A program made the translations under genes and the position numbers. Source: Sphingobacteriales bacterium (GTDB lineage Bacteria; Bacteroidota; Bacteroidia; Chitinophagales; Chitinophagaceae). Taken from it: a stretch of 64,000 bases of DNA. Within the stretch, counting starts at the first letter, position 1; every line of letters starts with the position of its first letter. The DNA is taken from assembly GCA_027484425.1 (NCBI GenBank), contig JAIXSZ010000025.1, forward strand, positions 1-64,000, read 5' to 3'. The notes under the pieces are model-generated. The model saw only the letters and a program-made list of their open reading frames with translations, was not told where the DNA came from and searched no databases. Positions 11,811 to 40,734 of the stretch are shown here, one piece after another.

Positions 11811-11914
11811 TGATTCACTTATTTAATGGACGGCAAAGTTAGGGAATGGAGTTGTTGCTTTATGACAATTTATTATTAATGAATGAAGGGGGTGATGTCA
11901 AATAAAAATTTCGC

Positions 11915-11922
11915 TACTTTTG
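11915..11922 (+). promoter_or_regulatory. TAnnTTTG -7 element before mntA
   Basis: TACTTTTG matches the Bacteroidota -7 consensus exactly, ending 5 nt before the ATG at 11928. If it is used, the transcript would be leaderless or nearly so. No convincing -33 TTG is present. Confidence 0.4.
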
Positions 11923-11927
11923 TTGGT

Positions 11928-12230
11928 ATGTCTATACTTGACCAACATAGCAGCATCATTCAAAAACTATGTGCTAGCCACAAAGTAAAACGACTGTATG
12001 CTTTTGGGTCTGTGTTAACTGATAGTTTCAATACAGAAAGTGACATTGATTTGATTGTTGACTTTGACCCGATGGACATAGATCAGTATGCCGACAATTA
12101 TTTTGATTTGAAATTTTTATTACAAGACATTTTCAAAAGACCCATTGATCTTTTGGAGGAAAAGGCTTTGAAGAACCCCTTTTTTATTCAGGCTATAAGT
12201 AAACAACGCAAGGTGGTGTATGAGCATTGA
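11928..12230 (+). CDS. mntA: MntA-like nucleotidyltransferase antitoxin
   Basis: 100 aa from the ATG at 11928; an in-frame ATG at 11883 gives a longer form that lies partly in the promoter. The minimal nucleotidyltransferase motif GSVLTDSFNTESDIDLIVDF gives Gly27-Ser28 and the metal-binding Asp39 and Asp41. It overlaps the following HEPN gene by 11 nt, the standard MntA/HepT arrangement. In characterised systems MntA AMPylates a tyrosine of HepT and so blocks its RNase activity. Local base composition is AT-richer than in the flanking housekeeping genes, consistent with transfer. Confidence 0.88.
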   Translation: MSILDQHSSIIQKLCASHKVKRLYAFGSVLTDSFNTESDIDLIVDFDPMDIDQYADNYFDLKFLLQDIFKRPIDLLEEKALKNPFFIQAISKQRKVVYEH

Positions 12231-12561
12231 AATAAAGACATGCCTCTACGATATGCTGAACGCTATTGAAGAAATAGACAGCTTTTTTATTGATACACCT
12301 AAAGACTTTTTTGAATATCAGCGCAATATTAAAACCAAAAGGGCTATTGAACGTAATATTGAGATTATAGGAGAAGCTATGAATAGGGTTCTAAATCTTG
12401 ATAGTTCAATTAATCTCACCAACTCAAGAAAAATTGTTGATACTCGAAACAGAATTATACATGGTTATGATACTGTTTCTGATGAAATCATGTGGGGTAT
12501 CGTCATCAAACAATTGCCCATACTGAAGTCCGAAATAGGAAGACTATTATCTACAGGATAG
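12220..12561 (+). CDS. hepT: HepT-like HEPN-domain toxin (DUF86)
   Basis: 113 aa, all-helical HEPN fold. The RX4HXY active motif is intact: Arg76 and Asn77, His81, Tyr83 within TRNRIIHGYDTV. In MntA/HepT systems the His/Arg pair cleaves RNA and the Tyr is the AMPylation target. 'RNIEIIGEAMNRV' is another conserved helix. With the intact antitoxin upstream, the module appears functional. Confidence 0.88.
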   Translation: MSIEIKTCLYDMLNAIEEIDSFFIDTPKDFFEYQRNIKTKRAIERNIEIIGEAMNRVLNLDSSINLTNSRKIVDTRNRIIHGYDTVSDEIMWGIVIKQLPILKSEIGRLLSTG

Positions 12562-34852: not shown

Positions 34853-35989
34853 TTATCCCTTACTTGCCAGTTGTTGTTCCTTCACCACTACTGCCAGTTG
34901 CAGTTGGGTGACGCTGCTTAGCAGCAGGAGGTTGCTGTAGTCGTAGCCCAGATGGCTAGGGTCGCTTTCCAGGACAGAATAGGTGGTTGGTATGCGGGCT
35001 GATGGGTTGGTTTGTGCAGCATTGTAGCGGCTCACTGCATTGCGCAGTTGCTGCACCAGTTTCACACCAGCTCCATCGCCATAAAAAGCATCACCAGGGC
35101 TTGCTTCCCTTATCATGGGCTTTTTGCCGGCAGGTAGTGATGGTGCATTTATTGCATTTTGTAGCACCATGCTTTTTATAGCCTCGCAAGTACCTATTAT
35201 ATCCTTGCTGAGGCTGTCGGTAGGGGCTGTGCTACCATAGCTGAGGCTATTCAGCAGCGCTTCTGCCTGCAAGTAGTTGTCCATGCGTGCCTGTGCCAGC
35301 GGGATACGTTGCCTTAGGTTAACCATTGCAAACATAAGCCCTATAGCCCCCGTAAGTAATATAGACACCATAATGGTGTTCATCTTGGTTTCGGGGTGAC
35401 GTATGCCCGTAAAGAAGTACAGCGGCAACAGCCCGAATGCAGCTAGCAGAATGGCACTCATACCTAGTACATTGGCTCCTGGCCAATGCATGATAGTAAA
35501 CAGGATGCCCAGTGAAAATACAATACCCGTAAGGCAAGCCATCGCCACTACTGCTTTTTGGCGGTTGTCGGTAGCTTCTCTTGATTTCAGGAAGTAAATG
35601 ATGGGCAAAAACACCAAACTGAAAGTGACGATAGCAAGTAGGATCAGAATACTTGCGCCTGGCCAGTGCATTATTTTAAACACTGTACCAATTATAAATG
35701 CCGTTACAGAGCTGGCACCGCTCATTAGCATTACCTTTTTCATTGCATAATAGTTTTTGAATGTTAACAAATTGATGGTTTCCTCTTCTATCTCCCGCAG
35801 TTCGGTATTGTAAAACCTCCGAACGGTTTTTAGATAGAACTGCTCAAAGTCATCAGTCTCTTTGAGCTCCTGCTCCATAATGCAGCAAATATGATCCAGA
35901 AGGTTCAACTGCAGGTCCTCCATTTCAACTCCATTACGTCTAATATCGTTGAGGATATATTCTATCTGCTCATCAGTGATGCAATACAT
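34853..35989 (-). CDS. PadR-associated membrane protein with GldL-like IMHWPGA motifs
   Basis: 378 aa. The N-terminal ~65 residues are a soluble helical domain (DEQIEYILNDIRRNGVEMED, NLLDHICCIMEQELKE) resembling the HAAS-type domain of proteins paired with PadR regulators. About six hydrophobic helices follow, with the motif I-M-H-W-P-G-A occurring twice, once in each of two similar helix pairs ('GTVFKIMHWPGASILI' and 'GILFTIMHWPGANVLG'). This motif also occurs in GldL. The C-terminal ~130 aa are soluble. It begins 1 nt after the PadR gene's stop codon. Function unknown; a regulated envelope protein is likely. Confidence 0.72.
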   Translation of the reverse strand: MYCITDEQIEYILNDIRRNGVEMEDLQLNLLDHICCIMEQELKETDDFEQFYLKTVRRFYNTELREIEEETINLLTFKNYYAMKKVMLMSGASSVTAFIIGTVFKIMHWPGASILILLAIVTFSLVFLPIIYFLKSREATDNRQKAVVAMACLTGIVFSLGILFTIMHWPGANVLGMSAILLAAFGLLPLYFFTGIRHPETKMNTIMVSILLTGAIGLMFAMVNLRQRIPLAQARMDNYLQAEALLNSLSYGSTAPTDSLSKDIIGTCEAIKSMVLQNAINAPSLPAGKKPMIREASPGDAFYGDGAGVKLVQQLRNAVSRYNAAQTNPSARIPTTYSVLESDPSHLGYDYSNLLLLSSVTQLQLAVVVKEQQLASKG

Positions 35990-35990
35990 T

Positions 35991-36332
35991 TTAAGCTGGT
36001 TTTACTTCTATGTCCAGTAATATTTTCATAGTAGCTACAAAGTCGGCAAACTCATTGACCTTCTCGTCTTTTCTGGTCATACCGGTATCGCTGAGGCGGT
36101 AATATTTGCGCACACGCTTGCCCATGTACTCCACTTCAGTGGTCACCAGTCCTTCTTCTTCCAGTGCATGCAGGGTGGGGTACAGAGCTCCCTCTGTGAG
36201 TTGTATGCGTCCTGCGGTTAGTTCTTTAACTCGTTGGGTTATTTCATATCCATACATTTTATGGTTATCAGCCAGTAGCTTTAGCAGTATGGTTTTTAGT
36301 GTGCCCTTTATCAATTCTGAAGAAAATATCAT
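35991..36332 (-). CDS. PadR-family transcriptional regulator
   Basis: 113 aa. Winged-helix with 'LLADNHKMYGYEITQRVKEL', the recognition-helix region 'QLTEGALYPTLHALEEEGLV' and the wing 'YMGKRVRKYYRLSDTG', all standard for PadR. The short C-terminal helix is the dimerisation part. PadR proteins usually repress their own operon and respond to ligands or stress. A GATACAT-N9-ATGTATC dyad overlaps the probable promoter just upstream, and the membrane-protein gene follows directly, so the pair is probably autoregulated. Confidence 0.93.
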   Translation of the reverse strand: MIFSSELIKGTLKTILLKLLADNHKMYGYEITQRVKELTAGRIQLTEGALYPTLHALEEEGLVTTEVEYMGKRVRKYYRLSDTGMTRKDEKVNEFADFVATMKILLDIEVKPA

Positions 36333-36644: not shown

Positions 36645-37247
36645 TTAGGCGTTTTTGTAATAGGCGTGAATTATTGCCGTGTCGTGCAGGAAGTCGATAC
36701 TAATAACATCTGCCTTGTACACTGCAAGCCCAGTGCGGGTGCTGAGGTCTGCGAGAAGTTCATTTCTTTTGTCGGGTGTAATAAGTTGTATGCGCTCATA
36801 CACTATTTCTTTGTACACCTCTACGCCTGCATACCTGTCCAGCACATATATGGTGGCTATTATCAGTAGATTGGCGACTACTAGCAGCAGGTAGTTGTTG
36901 CTGCTTAGCACCAATGCATTCAGTATACCTATGCTAATAGACACAAACAGATAGCCCATTTCTTTGACAGGTATCATGACTGTGCGGTAGCGCATAATAG
37001 AAAAGACAGCAAACAAACCAAAAGCAAAACCCAGATTGATACCTGCACTACTTAGCAGCAGGCAGGTAACAAAAATGACGATGTTAAACACTGCAAATGA
37101 AAACACATATTGCCGCTGCTGCCCCGATGGATAGTAGATGCCCAGGGTAATAACAGAAATACTTATGAGGTTGATGAGCAGCCTTATGGCAGGCTCTATC
37201 AGCGACATAGTGTCTAGTATACCTGTGTTGTTATCTGGCAGTATCAT
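36645..37247 (-). CDS. DUF4956 membrane protein
   Basis: 200 aa. Four hydrophobic segments in the first ~135 residues, with the family segment 'LGFAFGLFAVFSIMRYRTVMIPVKEMGYLFVSI' after helix 2, then a soluble C-terminal domain of ~65 aa containing YERIQLITPDKRNELLADLSTRTGL and ending with a short beta segment. DUF4956 genes are frequent neighbours of VTC-domain genes, and here the start overlaps the VTC gene by 17 nt. Likely a membrane partner of the polyphosphate-polymerase-like protein. Last gene of a five-gene operon. Confidence 0.88.
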   Translation of the reverse strand: MILPDNNTGILDTMSLIEPAIRLLINLISISVITLGIYYPSGQQRQYVFSFAVFNIVIFVTCLLLSSAGINLGFAFGLFAVFSIMRYRTVMIPVKEMGYLFVSISIGILNALVLSSNNYLLLVVANLLIIATIYVLDRYAGVEVYKEIVYERIQLITPDKRNELLADLSTRTGLAVYKADVISIDFLHDTAIIHAYYKNA

Positions 37248-37992
37248 ACTTGTTTATCTTTAGTAGTGTTGGTTTTATGTTGTTGTATTTCACGGTGTTG
37301 TTGAGCATGGCTATACCAGTAGCATATTTGCTGAATGGCCCACTGTGCAGCCCCATGCGGCGCAATAGTTGCGCAGCAGAACCTATTTGCTGATGGTGCG
37401 TTTGTTTGATCTCTATCAGTGCTGTATTGGGTAGGTGCCACAGTAGCCCATTGTGTGTAGTGCTGATATCAGTGTCTATAGTCACCCGCTCAGGTATCTC
37501 TGTTTGGCTTAAGGTTATCCGTTTGAAGCAGTTGGTAGCCACATGTAGGAGTGGTCCTATTTCTGGTTGCATACTTGTCACTAGTTGCAGCTCTGGTTGG
37601 GTAAGCTTTGGGTGCAGCTGTTCAATGCTCATCCGTTCTTTACGGGTAAGTCCTGTGCCTATTTTTTGCTTTACCTCCAGGTAGCAGGTGCCAGAGTTGT
37701 CATACCGTCTTTGTCTTACCTTCATTCTATGCGCCTTGCCTGTAACGTGCTGGTGATATAGAGATAACTGGGCTGTGTCGTAGTACCAGCTAGTATACCC
37801 AAACCTTCGTTTGCCCTCTATCTCCAGAATATTGTACTGTTTTGTCAGTTCTGCCAATACCTCTTTTAAAGCACTCACATGCAACAGGTACTTGTGCTCT
37901 ACACGGTGGGGCAGATGCGCATAAGCACTAATACCCGCCAGCGACACAGGCGCAAACTCATTTAGCGGTAAATCGTTCTGAGCTATTGGCAT
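37231..37992 (-). CDS. VTC-domain (polyphosphate polymerase-like) protein
   Basis: 253 aa. The triphosphate-tunnel fold is suggested by spaced charged strands: 'HRVEHKYLLH' (E-x-K start), 'YTSWYYDTAQLSLYHQH', 'RMKVRQRRYDN', 'CYLEVKQKI', 'GLTRKERMSI', 'RVTIDTDIS' and 'ALIEIKQTH'. In yeast Vtc4 these basic and acidic residues line the tunnel that polymerises polyphosphate from ATP. No signal peptide, so probably cytoplasmic, next to the membrane protein DUF4956. It starts 3 nt after the dikinase-like gene. Substrate (polyphosphate or another phosphate ester) not proven. Confidence 0.85.
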   Translation of the reverse strand: MPIAQNDLPLNEFAPVSLAGISAYAHLPHRVEHKYLLHVSALKEVLAELTKQYNILEIEGKRRFGYTSWYYDTAQLSLYHQHVTGKAHRMKVRQRRYDNSGTCYLEVKQKIGTGLTRKERMSIEQLHPKLTQPELQLVTSMQPEIGPLLHVATNCFKRITLSQTEIPERVTIDTDISTTHNGLLWHLPNTALIEIKQTHHQQIGSAAQLLRRMGLHSGPFSKYATGIAMLNNTVKYNNIKPTLLKINKYDTAR

Positions 37993-37995
37993 ATA

Positions 37996-39966
37996 CTATC
38001 TGTAAGGGCGCACTTGTTTCAGATACAGGCGGCCACTTTTGTCAAATTTGAATTCTATATCCAACCCATAGTTTTGCTCTTCGGTGGCATCACTATCGGG
38101 TTTGTTGTAGTAAAAATAAGACTTTACGGCCGCCAGCGCCTCATATAGTGTGTTGATCTGTTTTTTAGTAAGGACGGGTTTGTTTTGGTTGATGTTGCTC
38201 ATGGTGAGGTAGTCAACGGTCACATCAAAGTTGAGCGGGTCTATGTTGTACCCCTTCATGCACACAAACTGCTCACAGATCACAGAGTCGGGCGGAGCCA
38301 CTACAGGCACTTCGCCCACTTGAACATTTACAGTAAAGCCTGGAAAATTGTTCCTGTAGATATTGCGTGTAATAGCTACACCATTGGCAGCCTCATCAGG
38401 AAAACTTCTGTGTGCCAGTACACCCATCATCATAGTCCGTTCGTCTATGTTGCAAGCTCTGCGTTCGTGGTAGGCAGCATCGCTGTAGGCGCTGGCCCAT
38501 ACTTTTTTTATGGCTTCATCTATGGGTTTTTCGGGGTCATTCAGCTTGCCTGTTTTGCTGTCATAGAGTCCTGCTCCGCTAAAGCCAGGCGCATCTTCTG
38601 CATTACTGCTACTTCTGAATCTGTATGCGGTCCATTGTCCGTTAGTTTTTATCTGTTGCTCCACCAGCCGTAGCAGTTCGGCGTCTATCGGTTGTTTTTT
38701 TATGGCGGTTCTTACGTTTTTCAGTTGTGTATCTATTGCGGCTTTTGGTGCATTGTGGCGCTCCAGTTGTTGCAGCACACCTAGCTCTTTGTTCACCATT
38801 GGGGACCCTATATGTTGCAGGTAATACCCAAACGGTATTGCGAAGGCTCCTTCTGGTATACTAAATTTGCTATTCCACCTAGTAGCTACTTTGTGCAGCT
38901 CGCCCATGCCAGCAGCTTTGTTGCCCACTACATGTCCCCATTTAGCATTAATCGTTTTTATGGGTAGTATGCCTTTTTGTGTAGTATTATGCTTCAGTAG
39001 TACAGGTGCAGCGACGGCACTCATTTTTGAAAAGCTGTCTACCATTTGCTGGGTAGCTGGTGTTATGCTTACGCCGTGGGTAGTAACAGCAAAACGAACA
39101 GGTTTGTTCAAGTTTTCGGTTATATCTGGGCGGTTGTATAAAGTTACATCTGCCGCGGATGGAATATTACGATTGTGGCATAACACATTGATATGCGATA
39201 GTGGCGACTGAAGTGCGTCGGTTACTATGCCGGCACATACGGGCACATTTACCGGCGATCCTTTCATTAGCACAATGTATATGCGTGTATAATCGGTGTC
39301 GTTAATGGAGGTAACATCTTTTAGTATTCCATAGGTGACGCCAGCATTAAGAAGCTGGTATTTCTGCCCCTTATACAGCTCGGCAGGGTATATGCGTGGC
39401 ATCGTTAGTTTGCCATCATTGTCCATAGCGAGCAGGTAGTCTGAGTTGATAAGAAAGCGCACTGAATCGTGCATACTTATGCGTTTCAGTACAGCATCTG
39501 TAAGGGTGTTTATCATTTTTGCAGTAGCTCTGTCTTCACTCGCTATTTCCAGGGTGTACAAGTGGCTTTGCTCATAATAGTTCAGGTTCGCCAGTACATA
39601 CCTTCGTTGCATAGACTTGCCATAGTTGGTAGTGTTAAACAGTTCTAGTGGCATACCATCTTGCAGTATCAGCCTGCAAAAATCATAGTGAAATCTGTAT
39701 TTGCGGGCATTTATAAAGTAAACAGTACTACTGTTTACATCCTGTACCACCTTCACACTCAGTACATTGTTCATCTTGGCACTTAATGGAGCGCCTTGCA
39801 CTGCCAGGTAGTCGGCGTAAGAGTCTAAACGCAACAGATAATCGTCCTTACTACTCGTTATTGGTTTTGCCCTGTAGCCATACACATTGCTTAGTGAGTA
39901 GTATAGTGTGCCACCACCCAGTAGGCATGTTACCGCAAGCAGCCATATCCATTTTCTGTTGCGCAT
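37996..39966 (-). CDS. Membrane-anchored PEP/pyruvate-binding dikinase-like protein (GWD-like domain order)
   Basis: 656 aa. Residues ~5-25 form a signal anchor (WIWLLAVTCLLGGGTLYY), so the rest may lie outside the cytoplasm. Residues ~40-240 are not recognised. Around His258 is a phosphohistidine swivel motif: GIVTDALQSPLSHINVLCHN, then RNIPSA. From ~340 to the end is a PPDK_N-type ATP-grasp domain: VVGNKAAGMGEL (~347-357), FRSSSNAEDAPGFSGAG (~450-466), and the terminal LYLKQVRPY. The order swivel-then-ATP-grasp is that of glucan water dikinase, the reverse of PPDK/PEP synthase. ATP would phosphorylate the His and then an unknown acceptor. ATP supply outside the cytoplasm is a difficulty, so topology needs testing. 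Confidence 0.85.
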   Translation of the reverse strand: MRNRKWIWLLAVTCLLGGGTLYYSLSNVYGYRAKPITSSKDDYLLRLDSYADYLAVQGAPLSAKMNNVLSVKVVQDVNSSTVYFINARKYRFHYDFCRLILQDGMPLELFNTTNYGKSMQRRYVLANLNYYEQSHLYTLEIASEDRATAKMINTLTDAVLKRISMHDSVRFLINSDYLLAMDNDGKLTMPRIYPAELYKGQKYQLLNAGVTYGILKDVTSINDTDYTRIYIVLMKGSPVNVPVCAGIVTDALQSPLSHINVLCHNRNIPSAADVTLYNRPDITENLNKPVRFAVTTHGVSITPATQQMVDSFSKMSAVAAPVLLKHNTTQKGILPIKTINAKWGHVVGNKAAGMGELHKVATRWNSKFSIPEGAFAIPFGYYLQHIGSPMVNKELGVLQQLERHNAPKAAIDTQLKNVRTAIKKQPIDAELLRLVEQQIKTNGQWTAYRFRSSSNAEDAPGFSGAGLYDSKTGKLNDPEKPIDEAIKKVWASAYSDAAYHERRACNIDERTMMMGVLAHRSFPDEAANGVAITRNIYRNNFPGFTVNVQVGEVPVVAPPDSVICEQFVCMKGYNIDPLNFDVTVDYLTMSNINQNKPVLTKKQINTLYEALAAVKSYFYYNKPDSDATEEQNYGLDIEFKFDKSGRLYLKQVRPYR

Positions 39967-39975
39967 ACCGGTGGG

Positions 39976-40335
39976 TTATTGTATTTGGCTAGGTTTTTCT
40001 TTGCTTTTGTAAATGAAAAATGCCTCCAGTAGCAGTATTACTACCACAAACATAGATACTCCTGAAAGCTCAGGTATCAGTGTATTCAGGTAAACGAGCA
40101 GTAGTACGTTCAGTGCTAGCATAGCTATGCATATAATGCGTAACAATCGCTTTTTCATAAACATATTCAAAAACACCAGCACAAAGTTGATGAGCGAATA
40201 GCCTAGAAAAATCATTGCCAGTACAGCATAAGCATTGCCTACACCATGATTTGCGGCAGCATGCTCTGGTAGCAGTATGGCTAAAATAATACCAATAACT
40301 GCAAATGACCAAGTAGTACAGCGACTTGTACGCAT
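39976..40335 (-). CDS. Small membrane protein, operon partner 2
   Basis: 119 aa, three to four hydrophobic helices; first helix could be a signal peptide (IIGIILAILLP-like region ending AAAN). The segment KKRLLRIICIAMLALN parallels KKNRTLRIVCIVLTAPY in the preceding gene (40339), so the two are paralogues. 9 nt separate it from the dikinase-like gene. Function unknown; co-translation suggests a role with the dikinase/VTC/DUF4956 set. Confidence 0.65.
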   Translation of the reverse strand: MRTSRCTTWSFAVIGIILAILLPEHAAANHGVGNAYAVLAMIFLGYSLINFVLVFLNMFMKKRLLRIICIAMLALNVLLLVYLNTLIPELSGVSMFVVVILLLEAFFIYKSKEKPSQIQ

Positions 40336-40338
40336 TGT

Positions 40339-40734
40339 TTAATCAGGGGTTTCGTTATCGGTTATTGTTTCGGAAGTAGGTGGCGGCGGTGGTGTGGTTT
40401 TGGGAGGAATGCTTTTGTAGATGAGGAATATCATAGCAACAGTAACCACAGCAGGGAACATAGAATAGCCATTTTGGGCTACGAAAAGCGACAATGCAAT
40501 ATAGGGAGCAGTAAGTACTATGCATACTATGCGAAGGGTACGGTTCTTCTTAAACACATTGATGATAGTAAGTATCAGCGTCAGCGCACCCACTAACATT
40601 ATACCTACTAATATGGCAAATAAGGCACCTAAACCTTCCAAACCTTTGTTTGCAGTATTGTGTGCCGAAACTGTAGCAGGTAAAGCCGCAGCGATAAAGG
40701 TGGTAATTATTGCATTTTTATATCTATTATCCAT
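40339..40734 (-). CDS. Small membrane protein, operon partner 1
   Basis: 131 aa. Probable signal peptide ending ATVSAHN, then three hydrophobic helices and a Pro-rich tail (TTPPPPPTSETI) that ends acidic. Similar in layout to the next gene, which begins 3 nt downstream. It is the first gene of the five-gene minus-strand operon; the upstream region has a near-consensus TACCTTAG close to the start. No family recognised. Confidence 0.65.
   Translation of the reverse strand: MDNRYKNAIITTFIAAALPATVSAHNTANKGLEGLGALFAILVGIMLVGALTLILTIINVFKKNRTLRIVCIVLTAPYIALSLFVAQNGYSMFPAVVTVAMIFLIYKSIPPKTTPPPPPTSETITDNETPD

Follow-up and report, generated by a model that had tools for sequence, protein, structure and literature searches.

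A dikinase-like protein that accompanies DUF4956 in Bacteroidota, and a rare five-gene operon of Chitinophagaceae that contains both

The five-gene operon

We analysed a window of 64,000 nucleotides from a Sphingobacteriales bacterium (contig JAIXSZ010000025.1), which carries five closely packed genes on the minus strand. Two of them encode small membrane proteins, SM1 (40339..40734, 131 aa), with a signal-like N-terminus and hydrophobic segments, and its paralogue SM2 (39976..40335, 119 aa; 33% identity in the alignment). They are followed by DIK (37996..39966, 656 aa), an anchored swivel-histidine/ATP-grasp dikinase-like protein, by a VTC domain protein (37231..37992, 253 aa), and by a membrane protein with a Pfam match to DUF4956 (36645..37247, 200 aa). 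The gaps are 3 nt between SM1 and SM2, 9 nt between SM2 and DIK and 3 nt between DIK and VTC, and the VTC and DUF4956 genes overlap by 17 nt. This packing agrees with the preliminary description of the locus, and the single transcription unit that it proposed is likely.

Judged by eye and from hydropathy, the N-terminus of both SM proteins is signal-like and about three more hydrophobic segments follow it; their Pfam matches all stayed below cut-off. A profile made from ten SM copies matched 5 of the 244 genomes of our family sample, each time beside DIK. The largest array that we saw comprised five tandem SM genes ahead of DIK (L054:25-1576). At another locus (L288), the gene ahead of DIK encodes a membrane protein of 109 aa that resembled an SM analogue; it was negative with the SM profile and was counted as absent.

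The VTC protein is a member of PF09359 (93.4 bits; Pfam cut-off 23), and the last protein of the operon is a member of PF16316 (DUF4956; 157.3 bits; cut-off 30.6). R93, R95 and E194 of the window VTC aligned with R264, R266 and E426 of yeast Vtc4, numbered by our own count, and were invariant in 19 rows; according to PMC9911596, mutating these three Vtc4 residues together impairs the yeast enzyme. The window VTC thus shares the VTC/TTM domain and the aligned catalytic residues with the yeast VTC complex as described there, but it has neither an SPX match nor a transmembrane segment, and no test that we applied related DUF4956 to Vtc1. Two arginines of DUF4956 were kept in the alignment (R86 in 60/61 and R88 in 61/61 rows, 59 of the rows being different) and may possibly line a path for a polyanion. 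The structural model of DUF4956 (pLDDT 76, pTM 0.54) had no PDB match at E values up to 0.001; a presumed MgtC-like resemblance was also considered.

The SM-SM-DIK-VTC-DUF4956 order was found again in L053 and in L282, the latter from the genus of the window, and L054 has SM-DIK-VTC-DUF4956 with its five SM copies. As the order recurs in these three other Chitinophagaceae, the arrangement is more than chance, and the dikinase and the small proteins are not accidental neighbours of VTC and DUF4956. Among the Bacteroidota genomes sampled, the five-protein neighbourhood does recur, but the full set is rare, with four genomes found (the window and these three), all of them Chitinophagaceae. The five-gene operon is a rare form, and our main result is the more widespread pairing of DIK with DUF4956. 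In the window genome, DUF4956, DIK and VTC were each matched once.

Some neighbouring features were also recorded. The operon is immediately followed, on its own strand (34853-36332), by the gene of a PadR-family regulator and then by that of a membrane protein matching GldL_N. In L282, a second, partial DUF4956 match (G577:C16:85412-85630; profile positions 98-169) was found downstream of the intact operon copy. Elsewhere in the window (11883-12561), two small adjoining ORFs resembled, by eye, a nucleotidyltransferase/HEPN pair.

Domains and N-termini of the dikinase-like protein

All parts of DIK are encoded on the minus strand. A hydrophobic anchor of 21 residues (residues 6-26; 39889..39951) is followed by an alpha/beta domain without a family match (approximately residues 45-205, boundaries set by eye; 39352..39834), by the candidate swivel phosphohistidine His258 in a PLSH motif (39193..39195), and by a C-terminal ATP-grasp domain (approximately residues 335-656; 37999..38964), in which PPDK_N matched residues 346-654 with 66.9 bits (Pfam cut-off 27). 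PPDK_N was matched by all 27 DIK orthologs scanned. In the structural model of DIK (pLDDT 87.1, pTM 0.85), the ATP-grasp domain had structural matches in rifampin phosphotransferase and in PEP synthase (TM-score by target 0.77 for 5hv6_A).

H258, K350, R451, E638, Q651 and R653 were identical in 78 out of 78 full-length DIK orthologs. This set consists of the window protein and 77 of 80 loci, which were themselves the best 80 of 113; L055, L071 and L085 lack a full-length DIK ORF and were left out. The swivel histidine domain had no Pfam match in the window DIK and was assigned from the PLSH motif, its conservation and the model. With PPDK_N, its conserved K, R, E, Q and R, and H258, DIK falls into the class of swivel-histidine/ATP-grasp dikinases. 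Peptide scans in which the window protein alone served as query gave no relatives.

In glucan water dikinases the swivel histidine comes before a C-terminal ATP-grasp domain. DIK has the same order, but it differs in its export-type N-terminus and in its histidine domain: 8 out of 27 orthologs gave a GWD1_pHisD match, below cut-off and with an E value of 0.0079 at best, and the window DIK gave none, so a phosphohistidine domain above cut-off, as expected of a glucan water dikinase, is lacking. The label "GWD-like" given in the preliminary description holds for domain order and expected chemistry. The ATP-grasp domain is homologous to that of PEP synthase and rifampin phosphotransferase, whereas the domain order of DIK is opposite to theirs (ATP-grasp, swivel and then, in PEP synthase/PPDK, a PEP-binding barrel), and no family match to a PEP-binding or other acceptor barrel was obtained. 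No carbohydrate-binding domain was found among the 27 orthologs at E values up to 0.1.

The N-termini of the 78 orthologs were 61 signal-peptidase-I-like, 7 lipobox-like and 10 of another hydrophobic type, according to rules made for this analysis in place of a trained predictor (the lipobox labels of L063 and L107 are doubtful). Such export-type starts are absent from the preliminary description. We also compared anchors in 84 rows, 6 with and 78 without a detected upstream SM gene. The anchor had 19-21 residues in all 6 DIKs with an SM gene (window, L052, L053, L054, L282 and L283), and a hydrophobic core of 12-16 residues, signal-peptide-like, was present in 78/78 of those without, directly followed by Q in 65 of the 78. 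These 78 rows represent 77 or fewer distinct genomes, as L289 and L059 are probably one genome; SM genes could be missed in L056 and L287, where almost no sequence precedes DIK, and the sequence of L072 stops right after DIK. The coincidence of SM genes with a long anchor suggests that the SM proteins and the long-anchor DIK would share a membrane complex.

In 5 of the 6 anchored DIKs, basic residues after the anchor were at least as many as those before it, so an outward orientation of the anchored form draws mainly on kinship with the other DIK forms. Judged from these sequences, the window DIK probably faces outward. The density of O-glycosylation motifs (3.81 per 1000 residues in DIK, versus 3.01 in shuffled sequences and 2.63 in further ORFs selected for their size) was too weak to serve as a mark of export.

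DUF4956, VTC and CotH in genomes with DIK

We sampled 395 genomes of Bacteroidota, 85 of which had DUF4956 above cut-off. DUF4956 lay within 1 kb of DIK in 8/8 genomes with a close ortholog (DIK E < 1e-100), and it was found anywhere in the genome in 77 of the other 387 (Fisher p 3.5e-6, uncorrected for kinship, six of the 8 belonging to one genus). G045, with a longer subtype (E 2e-37) and a DUF4956 gene that lies on a different contig, is not among the 8; its inclusion gives 9/9. In the family sample of 244 genomes (DIK E < 1e-90; G473, with E 9e-22, left out), DUF4956 was present in 11 of 13 genomes with DIK versus 11 of the 231 others (p 1.4e-11), or, when three genomes with the divergent longer subtype were no longer counted as DIK genomes, in 8/10 versus 14/234 (p 4.7e-8), again without correction for kinship. 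Counted by genus, the same sample gave 7/8 versus 8/93, and 6/7 versus 9/94 without the divergent subtype. Within the genus of the window, two genomes have both DIK and DUF4956 and two have neither. Among 25 DIK genomes chosen by hand from the 80 to cover lineages, 23 have DUF4956. The DIK genomes in which it was not found, over these samples, are G418, G541 and G572 (also sampled as G395).

Across the 80 loci, DUF4956 was convergent to DIK in 65, co-directional in 2 and not seen in 13; in 11 of the 13 genomes whose DIK locus shows none, it was present elsewhere in the genome. The convergent pairs had a median gap of 0 and overlapped in 29 of the 65 cases. Most belong to Flavobacterium (57/65), and the remainder to other Flavobacteriaceae, Epilithonimonas, Chryseobacterium, Frigoriflavimonas, Taibaiella and Edaphocola. 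The pair is also present in a strain of F. johnsoniae (L097). Flanking genes of the pair differed between the two genomes compared. Taken together, DIK very probably works with DUF4956. The DUF4956 tree separates the groups, though the AU test leaves one clade unrejected (p 0.356), and two independent origins of the link are thus not retained.

A second, longer family of dikinases (965-1040 aa) was found at L040-L050 (e.g. L041:5291-8203), with a signal-like N-terminus in 10 out of 11; the gene is often followed by one of approximately 415-440 aa, with a gene of approximately 940 aa nearby. Used as a control, this exported family is not tied to DUF4956, which was present in 3/11 of its genomes.

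VTC and DUF4956 form a standard pair, as already recognised in the preliminary description: in the 80 of 88 DUF4956 genomes covered, 59 of 63 VTC places had a DUF4956 match no more than 1 kb away, and 62 had one within 3 kb. VTC had no match, however, in any of the 16 distinct genomes with a convergent DIK-DUF4956 pair. There are 17 VTC-free rows, counted as 16 because the sets share genomes (overlapping labels are G396/G497, G395/G572, G402/G533 and G415/G202). DUF4956, and not VTC, is therefore the constant partner of DIK. A membrane phosphoryl-transfer system, as the preliminary description suggested, is a fair class for the operon, whereas its alternative of a polyphosphate system as such does not agree with these VTC-free genomes, and polyphosphate storage as the whole story is disfavoured.

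VTC and DUF4956 also occur together with the kinase CotH. A frequent order starts with CotH, which a small lipoprotein follows in some cases, and continues with VTC, DUF4956 and a DUF2490 protein, the last with weak similarity to an outer-membrane barrel in some cases. PMC7112168 places genes for CotH, a polyphosphate polymerase and DUF4956 beside Pel clusters in Gram-positives, and in Bacteroides thetaiotaomicron DUF4956 and DUF2490 are neighbours in an iron stimulon table (PMC10434189). CotH ORFs started with a signal peptide or lipobox in 11 of 17 cases in the fetched loci, judged by eye. L201, from the family of the window, has CotH-VTC-DUF4956 with CotH at the position of DIK. The window resembles the module of PMC7112168 in that VTC adjoins DUF4956 and relatives such as L201 have an export-type kinase gene upstream; it differs in having a dikinase and small membrane proteins instead of CotH, so that its operon has no CotH gene, and it lacks a DUF2490 gene after DUF4956.

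CotH had no match anywhere in the window genome; counted over the genomes with the five-gene operon that were searched for it (G000, G396 and G397), it was missing from all three. In the 80 genomes searched it was missing from 7 of 8 with DIK versus 2 of 72 others. It was present, however, in 16 of the 25 chosen DIK genomes, 5 of the 10 convergent ones among them, so substitution of CotH by DIK is not strict and the idea of a strict replacement is weakened. In L202:3876-6078 and L201:4080-6137, VTC-DUF4956 is followed by the DUF2490 protein, and the module would reach the outer membrane if this is a barrel. A lipoprotein-like gene of approximately 130 aa, with at most weak SdrD_B-like similarity, lies just before VTC in L292:4150-4554, L295:2807-3199 and L297:4751-5134.

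A possible envelope phosphoryl-transfer module

We tentatively interpret the operon as an envelope phosphoryl-transfer module in which DIK takes the place of CotH in a variant of CotH-VTC-DUF4956, a reading to which we give somewhat less than even weight. VTC would use ATP at the cytoplasmic face to make a phosphate polymer, and DUF4956 would presumably be its partner in the membrane. A single N-terminal helix would hold DIK, whose catalytic domains most likely lie outside the cytoplasm, and phosphate would pass from the ATP-grasp domain to His258 and on to an acceptor in the envelope, which the N-terminal alpha/beta domain of approximately 160 residues, our proposed acceptor domain, might hold. 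DIK stands where the exported CotH kinase stands in relatives, just upstream of VTC-DUF4956, and its job is probably comparable; the SM proteins would be membrane subunits of the anchored form. DIK would be the kinase head and DUF4956 the constant membrane partner, perhaps within one complex, with VTC and SM as additions in the lineage of the window. The donor step, in which supply would come through DUF4956, and the acceptor step are doubtful as drawn. ATP should be scarce outside the cytoplasm, and this scarcity counts against an outward-facing DIK. It would be a speculative and improbable extension that the dikinase works outside the cytoplasm on a phosphoryl donor, polyphosphate or nucleotide, which DUF4956 hands over from the other side of the inner membrane, and that CotH and DIK are alternative kinase heads.

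The need of an ATP-grasp domain for ATP could instead be met if the anchored form had its catalytic domains inside, where ATP is plentiful, and fed or regulated polyphosphate made by VTC. The basic residues on both sides of the anchor in the operon clade and the retention in VTC of residues that correspond, in the alignment, to catalytic ones of Vtc4 agree with such an arrangement, but the short, signal-peptide-like or lipobox-like N-termini of the other orthologs and the 16 convergent genomes without VTC do not, and we consider it unlikely. DIK might also be an extracellular analogue of glucan dikinases that phosphorylates a surface or exported polysaccharide, VTC and polyphosphate mattering in the lineage of the window only. 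The histidine-then-ATP-grasp order, the weak GWD1_pHisD matches and the Pel clusters adjoining the CotH module of Gram-positives (PMC7112168) would fit, but this too is rather unlikely given the lack of carbohydrate-binding matches in the 27 orthologs scanned, and no polysaccharide genes were seen in the two neighbourhoods annotated with Pfam.

Finally, DIK and DUF4956 could travel together by ancestry or transfer and have no joint function. Convergent genes are not co-transcribed, and the predominance of Flavobacterium among the convergent loci would be expected in such a case. The pair nevertheless stays together despite different flanks in the two genomes compared, recurs co-directionally in the operon, and is mostly retained at genome level where the DIK locus itself shows no DUF4956, which makes a neighbourhood by descent distinctly unlikely.

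In the open-access literature, most subscription journals lying outside it, we found no paper linking a dikinase to VTC or to DUF4956. That DIK follows DUF4956 across relatives may point to a phosphate-transfer step in the envelope that has gone unrecognised. If the envelope phosphoryl-transfer reading holds, DUF4956 would have, next to CotH, another export-type kinase as partner, unrelated to the first; its role would become testable as envelope phosphorylation versus polyphosphate storage, and the problem of ATP supply to enzymes that work outside the cytoplasm would become sharper.
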